From an uncultured Acidobacteriia bacterium (GTDB lineage Bacteria > Acidobacteriota > Terriglobia > Bryobacterales > Bryobacteraceae): a DNA stretch of 64,000 bases. The translations under genes were made by a program, and so were the position numbers. The DNA is taken from NCBI GenBank assembly GCA_903923395.1, contig CAIXXM010000024.1:62001-126000 (forward strand). The letters are read 5' to 3'. The first letter of the stretch is position 1, and every line of letters starts with the position of its first letter. Below are positions 37,401 through 43,154 of the stretch, in pieces. Below the pieces are notes generated by a model. It saw only the letters and a list, made by a program, of their open reading frames with translations, did no database searches and was not told the DNA's origin.

Positions 37401-38975
37401 CTATGCCCGCTGGAACCGCTCCCAGGCGAGCCCAAACCGGGCCAGGTACTTCTTGAGCCGGTCCGCGTCATTTGTGCTGGTCTTTCGGGCCCGTGACTTT
37501 TCGAAGAGCAGTCTGCTGGCTTCTGAGAGCGACCGGCTCCGGCGGCAGACTTCAATGACCTTTGTGAGTTGCGCCCGGTCAAAGGGGTCAAGTTCCGCCA
37601 GTTGGTCCTGCGGCAGTACGTCTGCCAGGGGATCAACGGCTGTGGGTTCTCCCCACGATGCCAGCAGGCGGTCGATTTCCTCCTGCACCGTTTCCACGCC
37701 GATGCGGCCGCCCAGTGACAAGGTCGCCATGCGCGAAACGGCGGCATTGAGATCGCGAAAGTTGCCCTTCCAGGCCGCGGCGGCAGAGACCGCGAAATCG
37801 AGGAATTTCTTCCGCGCTTCCTTGCTGAAAGTGATCTGGCGTCCGGTGCGCCGGGCGTATTGATCGAGTTCGAATTGCAGGTTCGGTTCAATGTCTTCCG
37901 GCCTGGCGCTGAGCCCGGGCAGGGTGAAGGTCCAGAGATTGATGCGTGCGAGAAGATCTTCGCGGAAGCGCCCCTCGCGGACGGCGGAAAGCAGATCCCG
38001 GTTGGTGCCCGCGATCAATTGGAAATCGCTGTGGCTGGCGCGGTCAGAGCCCATTGGCAGGAAGGTTTTGTCTTCCAGTGCGCGCAACAGCATGGCCTGT
38101 TCATCCAGGCCGAGTTCGCCGATCTCATCCAGAAACAGCACGCCGTTGTCCGCGGTGCGGAGGAGGCCGGGGCGGTCTTTCAAAGCCCCCGTGAACGCAC
38201 CCTTGGTGTGGCCGAAGAGGGTGGACATGGCACCATCACCGCGCAGGGTGGCGCAGTTCACGTCCACGAAGTCGCCTTTGACGGCGTGTCGTGCCTTCTT
38301 GAGATCGAAGATGCGTTTGGCGAGCCGCGATTTGCCTGCTCCGGTAGGGCCCATCAGCAGCAGTGGATCCCTTGTCGCGATGGCCACCTGTTCAATCCGG
38401 TCAATCAGCTTATTGAAGGCCGGGTTGCGGGTCTCAATGCCACCCTTCAGGAAGGATGCTGCCTCCCGTTGTTCCTGCTGGAAGCGGGAGGCGATGCCGT
38501 CGTAGCGGGAAAGGTCGAGGTCAATGATGCTGATCTTGCCGGGCGCGCTGCGGTCACGGTCCGGGGAGCATTGCAGCAGCCTGGCGGGAAGCCAGCGGGC
38601 TTCCGTCAACAGAAAGAGGCAGATCTGCGCGACGTGCGTGCCGGTGGTGATGTGGACCAGGTAGTCTTCGGCCTCGTCGAACGGGTAGTTTTTCGCGAAG
38701 GCGAACAGGGTTTCGTAGACCTGTCCGAAGTCCCAGGGGTCCTGGAATTCTATCTGATGCAGCCGGACTTCGGTCTCCGGGGAAACGGTTTGGATGTCCC
38801 TCTGGACCACGGCTGCCAGCGAGGCGCTGCGTCTGTCATGGAGCAGTTCGAAGCGGTGGACGATGAGGTCGGGCTGGCGGCAGACCGAAACGGTGGGGCG
38901 CCAACTCTGCCAGCGGTCGGCACTTTTTCCGACGTCGAGGGTGGTGCCGAGCAGACCTAAGACCACGGAGCGCAT
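37401..38975 (-). CDS. rtcR: RtcR, sigma-54-dependent activator of the RNA-repair operon
   Basis: This 524-aa regulator has the RtcR N-terminal domain (CARF-like, residues 1-180; VVLGLLGTTLDVG at the start, HITTGTHVAQICLFLL near 110). An AAA+ sigma-54 interaction domain follows: Walker A GPTGAGKS (209-216), the sigma-54-contacting GAFTGA (259-264) and FLDEIGELG. The C-terminus holds the DNA-binding part. In known systems the N-terminal domain senses RNA damage-derived ligand and releases the ATPase to open the rtcBA promoter. It is divergent from the Ro60-Y RNA-rtcB-rtcA operon; 137 bases separate the two starts and hold a near-consensus sigma-54 promoter facing the operon. Confidence 0.95.
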   Translation of the reverse strand: MRSVVLGLLGTTLDVGKSADRWQSWRPTVSVCRQPDLIVHRFELLHDRRSASLAAVVQRDIQTVSPETEVRLHQIEFQDPWDFGQVYETLFAFAKNYPFDEAEDYLVHITTGTHVAQICLFLLTEARWLPARLLQCSPDRDRSAPGKISIIDLDLSRYDGIASRFQQEQREAASFLKGGIETRNPAFNKLIDRIEQVAIATRDPLLLMGPTGAGKSRLAKRIFDLKKARHAVKGDFVDVNCATLRGDGAMSTLFGHTKGAFTGALKDRPGLLRTADNGVLFLDEIGELGLDEQAMLLRALEDKTFLPMGSDRASHSDFQLIAGTNRDLLSAVREGRFREDLLARINLWTFTLPGLSARPEDIEPNLQFELDQYARRTGRQITFSKEARKKFLDFAVSAAAAWKGNFRDLNAAVSRMATLSLGGRIGVETVQEEIDRLLASWGEPTAVDPLADVLPQDQLAELDPFDRAQLTKVIEVCRRSRSLSEASRLLFEKSRARKTSTNDADRLKKYLARFGLAWERFQRA

Positions 38976-39066
38976 AGTTTTATCTGATTGTATATGGATT
39001 TATCTCAAAATGAGAGATTGGGTTTGGATCTGTGCCGCTAAGTGGATTGTTTTCAACGCGCAATAG

Positions 39067-39086
39067 TTTGGCATGCTGGCTGCATT
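39067..39086 (+). promoter_or_regulatory. Sigma-54 promoter of the Ro60-Y RNA-rtcBA operon
   Basis: The sequence TTTGGCATGCTGGCTGCATT has GG at 39070-39071 and GC at 39082-39083 with exactly 10 bases between them, as required for the -24/-12 elements. It also matches TGGCA and TGCAT around these. It ends 27 bases before the ATG of the Ro60 gene and lies downstream of a short imperfect inverted repeat near 39003-39015 that could be part of the activator site. RtcR, encoded divergently, is the sigma-54 activator expected to act here. Confidence 0.82.
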
Positions 39087-39112: not shown

Positions 39113-40642
39113 ATGGCACTCCAAACACTCTTCGGCAGCCCAACCGATACCGTCAACTATGAGAATGCCCCTGCCTACTCACTGGCACCCAAGCAGGCGC
39201 TGGCGCAGTACGCCGCGACGGGCTGTTTCGGACGGACGTTTTATGCCACCGAACAGGAACAACTGGAGCGTGTTCTTCGCCTGTGTGCGGGCTTGAGTCC
39301 GGAATATGTGGCGCAGGTCGCGGTTTACAGCCGCACGCAGGCCTATATGAAAGACCTGCCCGCTCTGCTGTGCGCGTGGCTTTCGACCAAGGATGCGCGG
39401 CTGCATGAATTCGTCTTCGCCCGCGTGATTGACAACACGAGAATGCTGCGGACCTATGTTCAGATCCTGCGGTCTGGTGTAGTGGGGCGAAAATCTTTAG
39501 GGACTGCACCCCGGCGGCTGGTGCGGCAATGGCTGGAAGCCCGTGATCCCGAAGCTCTGTTTGCTTCGCACGCGGGGCAGAAGCCGTCGCTGGCTGATGT
39601 GATCAAGATGGTGCATCCGAAACCGGAGAATGCCGTTCGGGAGGCCTTTTATGGATACCTTCTCGGGCGGGAGTTCGACGGCGCGGCTTTGCCGGAACTG
39701 GTCAAACAGTTTGAAAGCTTCCGGAGCGGAACGTCGGCTGCTGTGCCGGCGCTGCCATTCACTTTGCTTTCGGCTTTGCCGCTCCGCGCGGAAGACTGGC
39801 GGGAGATCGCGCGCCACGCCTCCTGGCAGACGACGCGGATGAACCTCAACACGTTTGCGCGCCACGGAGTTTTCGAAGAAGCGGAGATGGTGGGGTTGAT
39901 CGCGGCCAGGCTGCGGGATGCCAGCGAAGTCCGGCGCGCGCGGGTGTTTCCGTACCAGTTGCTCGCGGCTTTCCAAAGCAGCGGTGCGACGGTACCGGCG
40001 GAGATCCGGGACGCATTGCAGGACGCCATGGAAGTGGCGATTGCGAACGTTCCGGCGGTGCAGGGGAAGGTTGTGGTTTGCCCGGATGTTTCGGGTTCCA
40101 TGAACTCGCCTGTGACGGGTTTCCGGCCTGGCGCTTCCGCGGTTCGCTGCGTGGATGTGGCTGCTCTGGTTGCCGCGGCGCTGGTGCGCAAGAACCCTTC
40201 GGCCATGGTTCTGCCGTTTGAGAACCATGTTGTCCGGGTGGACTTGAATGCCAGCGACAGTGTCATGAGCAACGCCGGCAAACTTGCCGCGATCTGTGGC
40301 GGCGGCACCAACTGCAGCGCACCCCTGGCGCTCTTGAATGAACGGCAGGAGAAGGCGGATCTGGTGGTGTTTGTCTCGGATAACCAGTCCTGGTCTGACC
40401 CCCGGCAGTTGCCCGGCACCGCTCTGGGGGCTGCATGGGATCGCTTCCGGCAGAGAAATCCGGAGGGTCGGCTGGTATGTCTCGATATCCAGCTGCTCGG
40501 GACCACGCAGGTGCGGGAACGCGCCGACATTCTGAACATCGGAGGCTTTTCCGATCAGGTGTTCGAGGTCATAGCGGCTTTCGCGTCCGGGCAACTGGAA
40601 GCGGATCACTGGGTGGGGCGGATCGAAGCCATCGCGGCTTGA
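39113..40642 (+). CDS. rsr: Ro60/TROVE-domain protein (Rsr)
   Basis: This 509-aa protein is a bacterial Ro60 homologue. The N-terminal 310 residues form the HEAT-like TROVE ring that holds Y RNAs on its outside and misfolded RNA ends in its hole (SPTDTVNYENAPAYSL, YSRTQAYMKDLPALL, LEARDPEALFAS). The C-terminal part is a von Willebrand A domain with a metal site: D325-x-S327-x-S329 in PDVSGSMNS, GGGTNCSAPL and VVFVSDNQSWSD. The ATG at 39113 is chosen because it follows the sigma-54 promoter by 27 bases and the TROVE sequence starts there. Two Y RNAs follow directly. Known bacterial homologues act in RNA quality control with exonuclease PNPase. Confidence 0.93.
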   Translation: MALQTLFGSPTDTVNYENAPAYSLAPKQALAQYAATGCFGRTFYATEQEQLERVLRLCAGLSPEYVAQVAVYSRTQAYMKDLPALLCAWLSTKDARLHEFVFARVIDNTRMLRTYVQILRSGVVGRKSLGTAPRRLVRQWLEARDPEALFASHAGQKPSLADVIKMVHPKPENAVREAFYGYLLGREFDGAALPELVKQFESFRSGTSAAVPALPFTLLSALPLRAEDWREIARHASWQTTRMNLNTFARHGVFEEAEMVGLIAARLRDASEVRRARVFPYQLLAAFQSSGATVPAEIRDALQDAMEVAIANVPAVQGKVVVCPDVSGSMNSPVTGFRPGASAVRCVDVAALVAAALVRKNPSAMVLPFENHVVRVDLNASDSVMSNAGKLAAICGGGTNCSAPLALLNERQEKADLVVFVSDNQSWSDPRQLPGTALGAAWDRFRQRNPEGRLVCLDIQLLGTTQVRERADILNIGGFSDQVFEVIAAFASGQLEADHWVGRIEAIAA

Positions 40643-40647
40643 AAATT

Positions 40648-40774
40648 TGGCTGCGGCGAATGCGGAAAGAACTACATCACTGGGTTCCCGGTTCAAATCC
40701 GGGTCGCAGCGGCAACGCTGCGGTAGCTCAACAGGCAGAGCAGGAGTTTTTTCCATATCTTGTCGCCGCAGCGT
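40648..40774 (+). ncRNA. yrlA: Y RNA with circularly permuted tRNA-like domain (YrlA type)
   Basis: The outer stem pairs 40650-40659 (GCTGCGGCGA) with 40763-40772 exactly. It carries the Ro-binding signature GGCGAATG (40655-40662) opposite TTG (40760-40762), the G-N-CGAA-N-G / UUG pattern of Y RNAs. Inside lies a tRNA-like domain in permuted order. The T-arm is CCCGG-TTCAAAT-CCGGG (40687-40703). A 7-bp acceptor-like stem (40704-40710 with 40717-40723) is closed by GGCAAC. Then come TA (tRNA positions 8 and 9) and a D-arm GCTC-8 nt-GAGC with GG and flanking A (40726-40741). A small GGAG/TTCC hairpin follows. A canonical tRNA is excluded because the T-arm precedes the D-arm. YrlA RNAs known from other bacteria contain such a tRNA mimic. 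Confidence 0.88.
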
Positions 40775-40780
40775 CGAAAC

Positions 40781-40844
40781 GGCGGGGCCGAATGCCGGAG
40801 GGACTACATGTCAACGTGTCTCTCCACCGTTTGTCGGCCCCGTT
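40781..40844 (+). ncRNA. yrlB: Second, minimal Y RNA (YrlB-like)
   Basis: A 9-bp stem pairs 40783-40791 (CGGGGCCGA) with 40834-40842 (TCGGCCCCG) exactly. It has GCCGAATG at 40787-40794 opposite TTG at 40831-40833, the same signature as the first Y RNA. Inside is an 8-bp stem GGAGGGAC / GTCTCTCC with one G-U pair. There is no tRNA-like domain. It is about 62 nt and begins 8 bases after the first RNA stem. The layout matches the paired yrlA and yrlB RNAs of Salmonella. It is co-oriented with the operon, and rtcB follows 34 bases later. Confidence 0.82.
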
Positions 40845-40877
40845 GTGGGGAAAGTGAAATCCTGAAAGGAAACGAAA

Positions 40878-42113
40878 ATGTCCGGAACGCACAACTACAA
40901 CGTATTTGCCCCCGAAAAGGGCGTACCCGTGAAGGCTTGGACGAACGGTGTCCAACTGGAAGACCAGGCGAAGCAGCAACTTCTGAATGCCGCCCAGCTT
41001 CCGTTCGTCTTTAAGTGGATTTCCGCGATGCCGGACGTGCATTGGGGTGTCGGGGCAACGGTCGGGTCTGTGATTCCCACCAAGGGCGCGATCATTCCTG
41101 CTGCTGTGGGTGTGGATATCGGTTGCGGGATGATGGCCGTGCAAACTGACCTCAACGCCGGCCATTTGCCCGATGACTTGAAGGGCATCCGGACGGCGAT
41201 TGAGAACGCCGTGCCGCACGGCCGTACCAACAACGGCGGCGCGGGCGACCGGGGTGCCTGGCATGATATTCCGGAGCGGAACCTGGAGGTTTGGGGAACC
41301 GAACTGAAAGACAGGTATGACGCGATTCTGCAGAAGCATCCCAAGCTGGGTCGCGGCAACCATGCGAACCACCTGGGGACGCTGGGTACGGGCAACCACT
41401 TTATCGAAGTTTGTCTGGATGAGGCGGATCATGTCTGGTTCATGCTCCACAGCGGTTCGCGGGGCGTAGGGAACCGGATGGGAAGTTACTTCATTGAACT
41501 GGCGCGGAAGGAGATGCGGAAGTTCTATATCAATCTTCCGGACATCGATCTGGCTTACTTCCCCGAACATACCGATTACTTCGATGACTATGTGGAAGCT
41601 GTCGGCTGGGCGCAGGACTATGCCCGCCGGAACCGGGACTTGATGATGGAGCGGCTGGTGAACGCGGTACGTTCTTCCGGACAGGTTCCACCCTTCAGCG
41701 CCGAACTGAAAGCGATCAACTGTCACCATAACTACGTGACGAGAGAGAAGCACTTCGGGGAAAGTGTGCTGATTACCCGAAAGGGTGCGGTCCGGGCCCG
41801 GGAAGGTGATATGGGGATCATACCGGGCAGCATGGGCGCACGGTCTTATATCGTGCGAGGCAAAGGCAACCCGGAAAGCTTCTGCAGTTGCAGCCACGGT
41901 GCGGGGCGGGCAATGTCCCGGACCCAGGCGAAGAAGCGGTTCACCGTGGAGGATCACATCCGGATGACGGAAGGCGTGGAGTGCCGGAAGGACGAGGATG
42001 TGATTGATGAAACACCCGCGGCGTATAAGTCGATTGACGCGGTGATGGCGGCCCAGACCGATTTGGTTGAGATCGTCCACACCTTGCGTCAGGTGGTTTG
42101 TGTAAAAGGGTAA
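40878..42113 (+). CDS. rtcB: RNA-splicing ligase RtcB
   Basis: This 411-aa protein is an RtcB ligase, which joins 2',3'-cyclic phosphate (or 3'-phosphate) ends to 5'-OH ends using GTP and Mn2+. Metal ligands Asp80 and Cys83 lie in AVGVDIGCGMM. GTLGTGNHFIEV and SGSRGVGNRM follow. The guanylated histidine is His340 in CSCSHGAGRAMSR. The ATG at 40878 has AAAGGA 7 bases upstream. It follows the two Y RNAs and precedes rtcA by 12 bases, so it can repair RNA ends that RtcA produces. Length and all motifs are intact. Confidence 0.96.
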   Translation: MSGTHNYNVFAPEKGVPVKAWTNGVQLEDQAKQQLLNAAQLPFVFKWISAMPDVHWGVGATVGSVIPTKGAIIPAAVGVDIGCGMMAVQTDLNAGHLPDDLKGIRTAIENAVPHGRTNNGGAGDRGAWHDIPERNLEVWGTELKDRYDAILQKHPKLGRGNHANHLGTLGTGNHFIEVCLDEADHVWFMLHSGSRGVGNRMGSYFIELARKEMRKFYINLPDIDLAYFPEHTDYFDDYVEAVGWAQDYARRNRDLMMERLVNAVRSSGQVPPFSAELKAINCHHNYVTREKHFGESVLITRKGAVRAREGDMGIIPGSMGARSYIVRGKGNPESFCSCSHGAGRAMSRTQAKKRFTVEDHIRMTEGVECRKDEDVIDETPAAYKSIDAVMAAQTDLVEIVHTLRQVVCVKG

Positions 42114-42125
42114 AGGAGCTGCATC

Positions 42126-43154
42126 ATGATTACGATCAACGGGATACTGGGGGAAGGTGGAGGGCAGATTCTGCGGACATCGCTAAGTCTGTCTCTCTGC
42201 ACGGGCCAGCCGTTCCGGATCGAGAACATCAAGGCCGGGCGTCAGAAACCCGGCTTGATGCGGCAGCACTTGACGGCGGTTCTGGCAGCGGCGGAAGTCG
42301 GCGGTGCCGACGTGGAAGGTGCGGTGCTTGGCTCCCAGGCACTTACCTTCCGGCCGGGAAAAGTGCGCGCCGGGGAATATAAATTCGTCATTGGGACCGC
42401 GGGCAGCGGCACGCTGGTATTCCAAACGGTTCTGCCCGCGCTCATGATGGCGGAGGGTGCCAGTCATATTGTGGTGGAGGGCGGCACGCATAATGAAGCC
42501 GCGCCTCCGTATGACTTTCTTGTACGCAGCTTTTTGCCGCTGTTGGCTCGCATGGGGCCAAAGGTAGCTGCTGCATTCGAGCGGTACGGTTTTTATCCAG
42601 CAGGCGGCGGGCGCTTCGCGGCTTCGATTGCACCGGCACTCCGGTTGATGCAGCTGCATCTGGGGGAGCGCGGGGAAATTACGCACCGCCGCGTCCGGGC
42701 TGTGGTGGCTAACTTGCCGTATCACATCGCACAGCGCGAGGTGAAGACAGCAGCGGGCCGTTTGAACTGGGGCGAAGACAGCTTCAAAGCGGAATCGACG
42801 CGCGAGTCCAATGGTCCCGGCAATGTGGTGATGGTGGAGGTGGGCAGCGCGGAAGTAACTGAGATCTTTACCGCCTTTGGCAAGATGCAAGTAAGTGCGG
42901 AGGCGGTGGCAGATATGGCTGCCAGGGAAGCAAGGGAGTATCTTGCTTCGAAGGCCGTTGCTGCAGAGCATCTTACAGACCAGTTATTGCTGCCGATGGC
43001 CTTGGCCGGTGGCGGATCCTTTACCGCGCTGAAGTTGAACCCGCATGCCCGGACAAACATGGAGGTGATCCGCGAATTCCTGCCCGTGGAGTTCACCACG
43101 GAGGATCAGGGTGATTACCAGTTGGTGCAGGTCCAGGAGCGGCAGGCGCGCTGA
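42126..43154 (+). CDS. rtcA: RNA 3'-terminal phosphate cyclase RtcA
   Basis: This 342-aa enzyme converts an RNA 3'-phosphate into a 2',3'-cyclic phosphate with ATP, supplying a substrate for RtcB. It has the opening GEGGGQILRTSLSLS, RPGLM-like QKPGLMRQHLTAV, VEGGTHNEAAPPYDFL and the nucleophile His307 in NPHARTNMEV, equivalent to His309 in E. coli. The ATG follows AAAGGAGC by a few bases. It ends the operon; a convergent methyltransferase gene begins 38 bases further on the other strand. Confidence 0.95.
   Translation: MITINGILGEGGGQILRTSLSLSLCTGQPFRIENIKAGRQKPGLMRQHLTAVLAAAEVGGADVEGAVLGSQALTFRPGKVRAGEYKFVIGTAGSGTLVFQTVLPALMMAEGASHIVVEGGTHNEAAPPYDFLVRSFLPLLARMGPKVAAAFERYGFYPAGGGRFAASIAPALRLMQLHLGERGEITHRRVRAVVANLPYHIAQREVKTAAGRLNWGEDSFKAESTRESNGPGNVVMVEVGSAEVTEIFTAFGKMQVSAEAVADMAAREAREYLASKAVAAEHLTDQLLLPMALAGGGSFTALKLNPHARTNMEVIREFLPVEFTTEDQGDYQLVQVQERQAR

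Follow-up and report, generated by a model that had tools for sequence, protein, structure and literature searches.

A YrlA-class Y RNA with a circularly permuted tRNA-like head in an acidobacterial RNA-repair operon

The window, i.e. the whole 64-kb stretch of DNA from an uncultured acidobacterium that was analyzed, contains an RNA-repair locus in which two small RNA genes lie between rsr and rtcB. The genes, the two RNAs and their structural elements are listed in Table 1. The start codon of rsr was chosen by us, since the listed open reading frame begins at 39032. A sigma54-like site lies upstream of rsr and fits control of this gene by the divergent RtcR. The pattern used for it, TGGCAYNNNNNYTGCW, was set down only after the site had been seen. 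When up to one mismatch was allowed, the same pattern gave 8 matches in the window, which is not above chance (mean 10.5).

Table 1. Coordinates of genes, RNAs and RNA elements at the locus, in window positions.
Feature	Position	Strand	Basis
rtcR, sigma54-dependent activator, divergent	37401..38975	-	Pfam RtcR, E 2.4e-81; Sigma54_activat, E 2.8e-47
Candidate sigma54 (-24/-12) promoter upstream of rsr	39069..39084	+	sole exact match to TGGCAYNNNNNYTGCW in the window
rsr, Ro60 orthologue (TROVE/vWA)	39113..40642	+	Pfam TROVE and vWA_Ro60 above cut-off
First Y RNA, YrlA-class	40650..40772	+	lower Ro/Rsr-binding-type stem, upper stem, tRNA-like head
First Y RNA, Rfam match	40653-40772	+	RF02553, 58.2 bits
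First Y RNA, custom model match	40652-40770	+	R1, 103 bits; the R1 training set includes the same sequence
Upper Y stem, 5' strand	40664..40673	+	fold, pairing with 40745-40754
U48 equivalent	40686	+	Levitt pair with the A15 equivalent at 40731; 15-48 covariation
T-arm	40687..40703	+	fold; stem CCCGG/CCGGG at 40687-40691/40699-40703
T-loop TTCAAAT	40692-40698	+	sequence, fold
Closed acceptor-like stem, 3' strand first	40704..40723	+	fold and relatives
3' acceptor strand TCGCAGC	40704-40710	+	fold
Loop GGCAAC between acceptor strands	40711-40716	+	fold: G-C pair and GCAA tetraloop
5' acceptor strand GCTGCGG	40717-40723	+	fold
TA, tRNA positions 8-9 (element from TA to A26: 40724..40742)	40724-40725	+	sequence
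D-arm GCTC-AACAGGCA-GAGC	40726-40741	+	stem 40726-40729/40738-40741, loop AACAGGCA at 40730-40737
A26 equivalent	40742	+	sequence
Second Y RNA, short, YrlB-like, without tRNA-like head	40779..40846	+	fold; Ro-type motif
rtcB, RNA ligase	40878..42113	+	Pfam PF01139, E 8e-129
rtcA, RNA 3'-phosphate cyclase	42126..43154	+	Pfam PF01137, E 1.4e-74

The predicted structure of the first RNA is a long paired stem topped by a three-armed head. All head arms are present in the minimum-energy fold of 40643-40776 (-61.3 kcal/mol; z -5.86, none of 200 shuffles being as good), and the head folded alone (40684-40742) forms identical arms (z -4.19, again 0/200 shuffles). The initial annotation, made from the letters alone, had read this region as a permuted tRNA-like domain and had proposed structure prediction as a check. 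Both the presence of the arms and their order (T-arm, 3' acceptor strand, loop, 5' acceptor strand, TA and D-arm, at 40687-40741) are borne out by sequence and fold, and the T-loop is the one that had been named. Two details came out differently. The acceptor-like stem, described as having exactly 7 bp, has this length by tRNA numbering but 8 bp in the predicted fold. Similarly, the "hexaloop" does consist of six bases between the acceptor strands, but folds as an extra G-C pair closing a GCAA tetraloop, a GNRA-type loop without CCA. In the stem below the head, the conserved GAACTACA from the upper Y stem extends to 40676, and the register of the family differs by one from that of the window fold. 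The lower stem carries the GGCGAAUGC...CUACA / UUGUCGC motifs.

By its anatomy, the first RNA is of the YrlA class. Its 5' and 3' ends pair to form a large stem with Ro-type motifs, its head comprises T-arm, closed acceptor stem and D-arm in permuted order, and its gene adjoins rsr (Ro60). By Rfam's own rule, however, it is not a listed member of RF02553: the model is matched over all of its 114 positions (1-114; 58.2 bits, E 6.2e-13 in a 301-base search), but the gathering score is 69 bits, and searching the whole window with Rfam at the curated threshold reported nothing. This cut-off was reached in only 1 of 297 genomes of the phylum. The phylum tallies obtained with Rfam (62/297 genomes) and R1 (130/297) are unsafe as Y RNA counts, because tandem tRNA genes also match the models. 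Rfam matches to HCV_X3 (E 0.13) and tRNA-Sec (E 0.12) fell far under the cut-off and were taken as chance.

Compared with YrlA (RF02553; Salmonella YrlA, PDB 6CU1), the window RNA has the same lower stem with GAAUGC and CUAC motifs, the same permuted T-arm/acceptor/D-arm head and the same neighborhood of rsr, rtcB, rtcA and rtcR. It differs by its score below the Rfam cut-off, by a U48-A15 pair where C48-G15 is commoner, and by the GCAA closing its acceptor stem. We regard its identity as a YrlA-class Y RNA, and its fold, as close to certain. That 40650-40772 is a YrlA-class bacterial Y RNA of an rtcR/rsr/Y RNA/rtcB/rtcA repair operon is the best explanation overall, and a highly probable one.

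The initial annotation implied that the permuted resemblance to tRNA was new, which proved not to be the case. Excerpts of published work give 6CU1 as the structure of Salmonella YrlA. In the available part of PMC11472068, this bacterial Y RNA is superposed on tRNAs with circular permutation and provides 81 of the 99 permuted pairs of the benchmark; an extract of PMC13355120 repeats the match. The kind is therefore known, and the window RNA is another member of it. What the locus holds is a known type of small RNA, in an acidobacterial copy that had not been annotated, and the permuted order has already been described for this type. Among other tRNA-like RNAs, tmRNA has a free CCA end and is chargeable. 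Its tRNA-like domain is comparable as a tRNA-like structure with a modified T-loop (PMC8394870, in extract), but a tmRNA fragment is listed with "no permutation" relative to tRNA in the part of PMC11472068 at hand.

The second Y RNA shares the Ro-type motif and the lower stem (40784-40841) of the first, and its fold is better than that of most shuffled sequences (z -3.18, 2/200 shuffles as good). Rfam YrlB (RF02565) scored a non-significant 15.4 bits on 40779-40846 (E 2.4), short of its gathering score of 97. We filed this RNA as YrlB-like only, its anatomy being that of a short Ro-type stem-loop without a tRNA-like head. It resembles YrlB in being a bare Ro-type stem-loop next to the first Y RNA. 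However, it comes after the YrlA-class RNA, whereas yrlB stands first in the Salmonella operon, given as rsr-yrlBA-rtcBA in the excerpted literature.

Conservation of the head was assayed in the rsr loci L031-L110, taken from named genomes as the best 80 of 154 and making 81 sequences with the window. A descriptor demanding the stems, the T-loop and GG gave 114 hits scoring at least 9. A strict Ro pattern left 67 of these and a loosened one 102, or 96 after dropping identical heads; several of the 12 rejects look like true Y RNAs. Both RNA ends were found for 93 of the 96 heads, and 39 of these rows, hand-chosen for variety, form the alignment A1. In this alignment, 96.5% of the cells of the named structure are paired, against a shuffled mean of 76.2 and 38.8-48.0 for slid partners, the demands of the descriptor biasing the pairing percentages upward. 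For the upper stem, the register of the window fold fitted the family poorly and the family register was substituted before counting, so that its pairing was tuned on the alignment. Loss of the D-arm and T-arm pairings in relatives, which the initial annotation had named as the observation that would speak against it, was not seen in the 39 aligned rows.

Compensatory changes are frequent in the same alignment: both partners change in 26 of the 32 pairs, including all 7 of the acceptor stem and 4 of the 5 of the T-stem. The D-stem is 100% paired and nearly invariant; one of its 4 pairs changes on both sides and two never vary. The Y stem that stands in the anticodon-arm place is also kept with compensatory changes. 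This variety of pair types is independent of the descriptor, as is the 15-48 pair described below, and neither is corrected for shared descent. A loose arm descriptor had 5 hits in 1.44 Mb of reversed sequence (both strands). In the forward reading, at least one hit was obtained in 94 of 111 sequences (the window and L001-L110), some of these hits being tandem tRNA genes or chance.

The tertiary Levitt pair 15-48, which played no part in row selection, switches between G-C and A-U. Among the 96 distinct heads, T48 is found with A15 in 13 of 14 cases and another base at 48 with A15 in 2 of 82 (table 13/1/2/80, p 3.6e-13, ignoring shared descent). The window itself has U48 and A15. Eleven acidobacterial rows, whose genomes may overlap those of the 80-locus set and of which L001 is the window's own copy, comprise 6 A-U, 4 G-C and 1 G-G. 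U8 is kept in 94/96 heads and A14 in 95/96.

The heads were also un-permuted in silico. Once the halves stood in tRNA order and a generic anticodon arm had been supplied, ARAGORN called a tRNA in 89 of 89 heads, including that of the window; it called none (0/89) in native order and none (0/89) when the halves were shuffled. These 89 were taken from the 93 rows, long or doubtful ones being left out. The complete success in tRNA order is partly due to rows having been chosen for stems, T-loop and GG, which does not explain the contrast with native order. Altogether, the compensatory changes in the arms, the 15-48 covariation, the retention of U8 and A14 and the ARAGORN calls support the earlier suggestion that tRNA mimicry by the head is under selection.

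The frequency of such heads was determined by a census in which Y RNAs were picked by their Ro-type 5' motif, lower stem and 3' motif, the head being ignored. The motif pattern included GGGACUACA; a narrower pattern missing GGGACUACA gave 150 Y RNAs in 68 loci. The census yielded 227 Y RNAs in 74 of the 81 sequences (80 loci and the window), with none in the reversed sequence or on the minus strand. Six Y RNAs were found in 2 of these 74 sequences, 5 in 12, 4 in 12, 3 in 21, 2 in 17 and 1 in 10. T-arm and D-arm are both present in 121 of the 227 (64 sequences), and the tRNA-like head is therefore a common but non-universal Y RNA module. The other 106 lack a head as tested, 41 of them being 80 nt or shorter and 65 longer and differently built.

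Several further features were observed at these loci. Three heads (L091:4606, L095:4637 and L061:3285) have a D-arm of the type GGCGGAA..GGTAGACGCGC, which we take to be Leu-tRNA-like, instead of the usual TAGCTCA type; this suggests that different heads mimic different kinds of tRNA. Another class of long Y RNA has a T-arm-like hairpin with GCGCYC after it and a second arm of a different kind. Of the 65 long Y RNAs lacking a standard head, 16 show both the hairpin and GCGCYC; examples recognized by eye are L058:5034, L069:4949, L099:4861, L102:4890 and L101:5170. Finally, at L076, L078-L081, L091, L093, L095-L097, L101, L103, L105, L108 and L109, the Y RNA genes downstream of rsr have tRNA genes (Asn, Lys, Pro, Gln and other types) among them or at most some 300 bases beyond them.

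A working model for the RNA can be proposed from these features and from literature on relatives. The lower stem would bind Rsr, and the head would fold like a tRNA corner, with the acceptor/T stack docked on the D-arm and the Y stem occupying the place of the anticodon arm. As the acceptor ends are closed by a loop, the head could presumably not be charged. Enzymes that recognize the elbow, such as TruB and Dus, would read it as tRNA; modification by such pseudouridine and dihydrouridine synthases might be what the mimicry is for, as the initial annotation had suggested. Homologues of TruB, Dus and PNPase are encoded in the host genome. For YrlA, the accessible part of PMC8394870 likens the head to the D, T and acceptor arms, names DusA and TruB as the enzymes that modify it, and describes a basal stem that binds Rsr; the head is also said there to bind PNPase. 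Damage to tRNA would switch on RtcR and then the operon; in line with this, an extract of PMC7790460 attributes operon activation to tRNA fragments acting through RtcR. The head might then be a tRNA-like handle through which the Rsr particle meets a partner, candidates being a nuclease (PNPase, for example) and the operon's own tRNA repair enzymes. We give roughly even chances to the head being an effector or substrate arm through elbow mimicry. Rsr/Y RNA function has been studied in Deinococcus only, according to the same extract of PMC7790460.

The head could instead be a decoy that competes for, or inhibits, a tRNA-cleaving nuclease, its role then being to shield tRNAs and not to bring RNAs to a nuclease. 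PMC7790460, in the part available, proposes the YrlA head as a possible inhibitor of anticodon nucleases and states that YrlA fragments were undetected under tRNA-cutting conditions. The operon responds to tRNA damage, and a head without an anticodon loop might bind yet escape cutting; however, it would offer nothing to a nuclease that recognizes this loop. We consider this role improbable.

The YrlA model also matches junctions between tandem tRNA genes, and 12 of the 30 loci fetched with it (L001-L030) sit on such genes (L014, L016-L018, L020, L022, L023, L025 and L027-L030), which yield false YrlA calls. It is, however, barely conceivable that 40684-40742 is a junction of this kind, and we rejected it: ARAGORN finds no tRNA gene in the window, no anticodon arms flank the module, and the module is enclosed by a paired Y stem that carries the Ro-type motif and adjoins rsr. 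Moreover, the best match of the head to a tRNA of its own genome covers 36 of 53 positions (0.68), near the bottom of the range of mutual best matches of these tRNAs (0.65-0.88). This comparison drew on 31 distinct tRNAs, found in the 30 loci that were fetched out of 47 matches, and on the same identity a recent capture from a present-day own tRNA was rejected. In the single alphaproteobacterial genome compared in this way (L055, 32 tRNAs), the head matches an Arg and a Val tRNA at 42/52 positions.

A circularly permuted tRNA gene, whose transcript would be spliced and ligated before being cut open at its acceptor end to yield a functional tRNA, shares with the window RNA the order of 3' half, intervening loop and 5' half (red algae and some archaea; PMC3978253, in extract), and RtcB is encoded next door. 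Such a gene requires a complete tRNA with an anticodon arm, in place of which the window RNA has a Y stem, itself kept with compensatory changes, besides a GCAA-type closing loop without CCA, no known processing to tRNA and no ARAGORN call in native order, so that we rejected this reading as having hardly any chance of being right.

The closing loop of the YrlA-class heads bears on their origin. Among alphaproteobacterial heads whose stem has 7 bp and whose loop has 4 bases or more, NCCA occupies tRNA positions 73-76 in 20 of 32, and shuffling these loops gave CCA in 0.99 heads on average and in 6 at most over 2000 rounds, these counts ignoring shared descent and the class being assigned from record titles. 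At other loci, CCA is found at 74-76 in 1 of 28 heads (shuffled mean 0.86, largest 5). In the acidobacterial set it occurs in 2 of 11 (L004 and L008), and NCCA is absent from the window's own closing loop. Over all 96 heads, CCA is commonest at 74-76 (22 heads); a second peak of 13, three bases earlier, we attribute to stems whose final CC has an A after it.

It is a tentative idea, and a rather doubtful one, that the YrlA head descends from the 3' end of a tRNA, or that selection still maintains such an end in it. Given the NCCA at 73-76 and the tRNA genes near Y RNA genes at some loci, a simple Ro-type stem-loop like the second RNA of the window could have acquired the head from a place where two tRNA genes adjoin. 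Since NCCA is rare outside the Alphaproteobacteria and absent in the window, it may equally be a late trait of a single clade. A literature search, with the main YrlA papers outside its reach, found no paper describing this sign; possibly it is new, although it lies outside the window.

The finding alone confirms known biology. It adds an acidobacterial member to the YrlA class, together with comparative evidence for a tRNA-like tertiary core, in a family for which the working partner has received little study. Should the alphaproteobacterial NCCA reflect the origin of the head, it would show how a tRNA mimic was built into Y RNAs.
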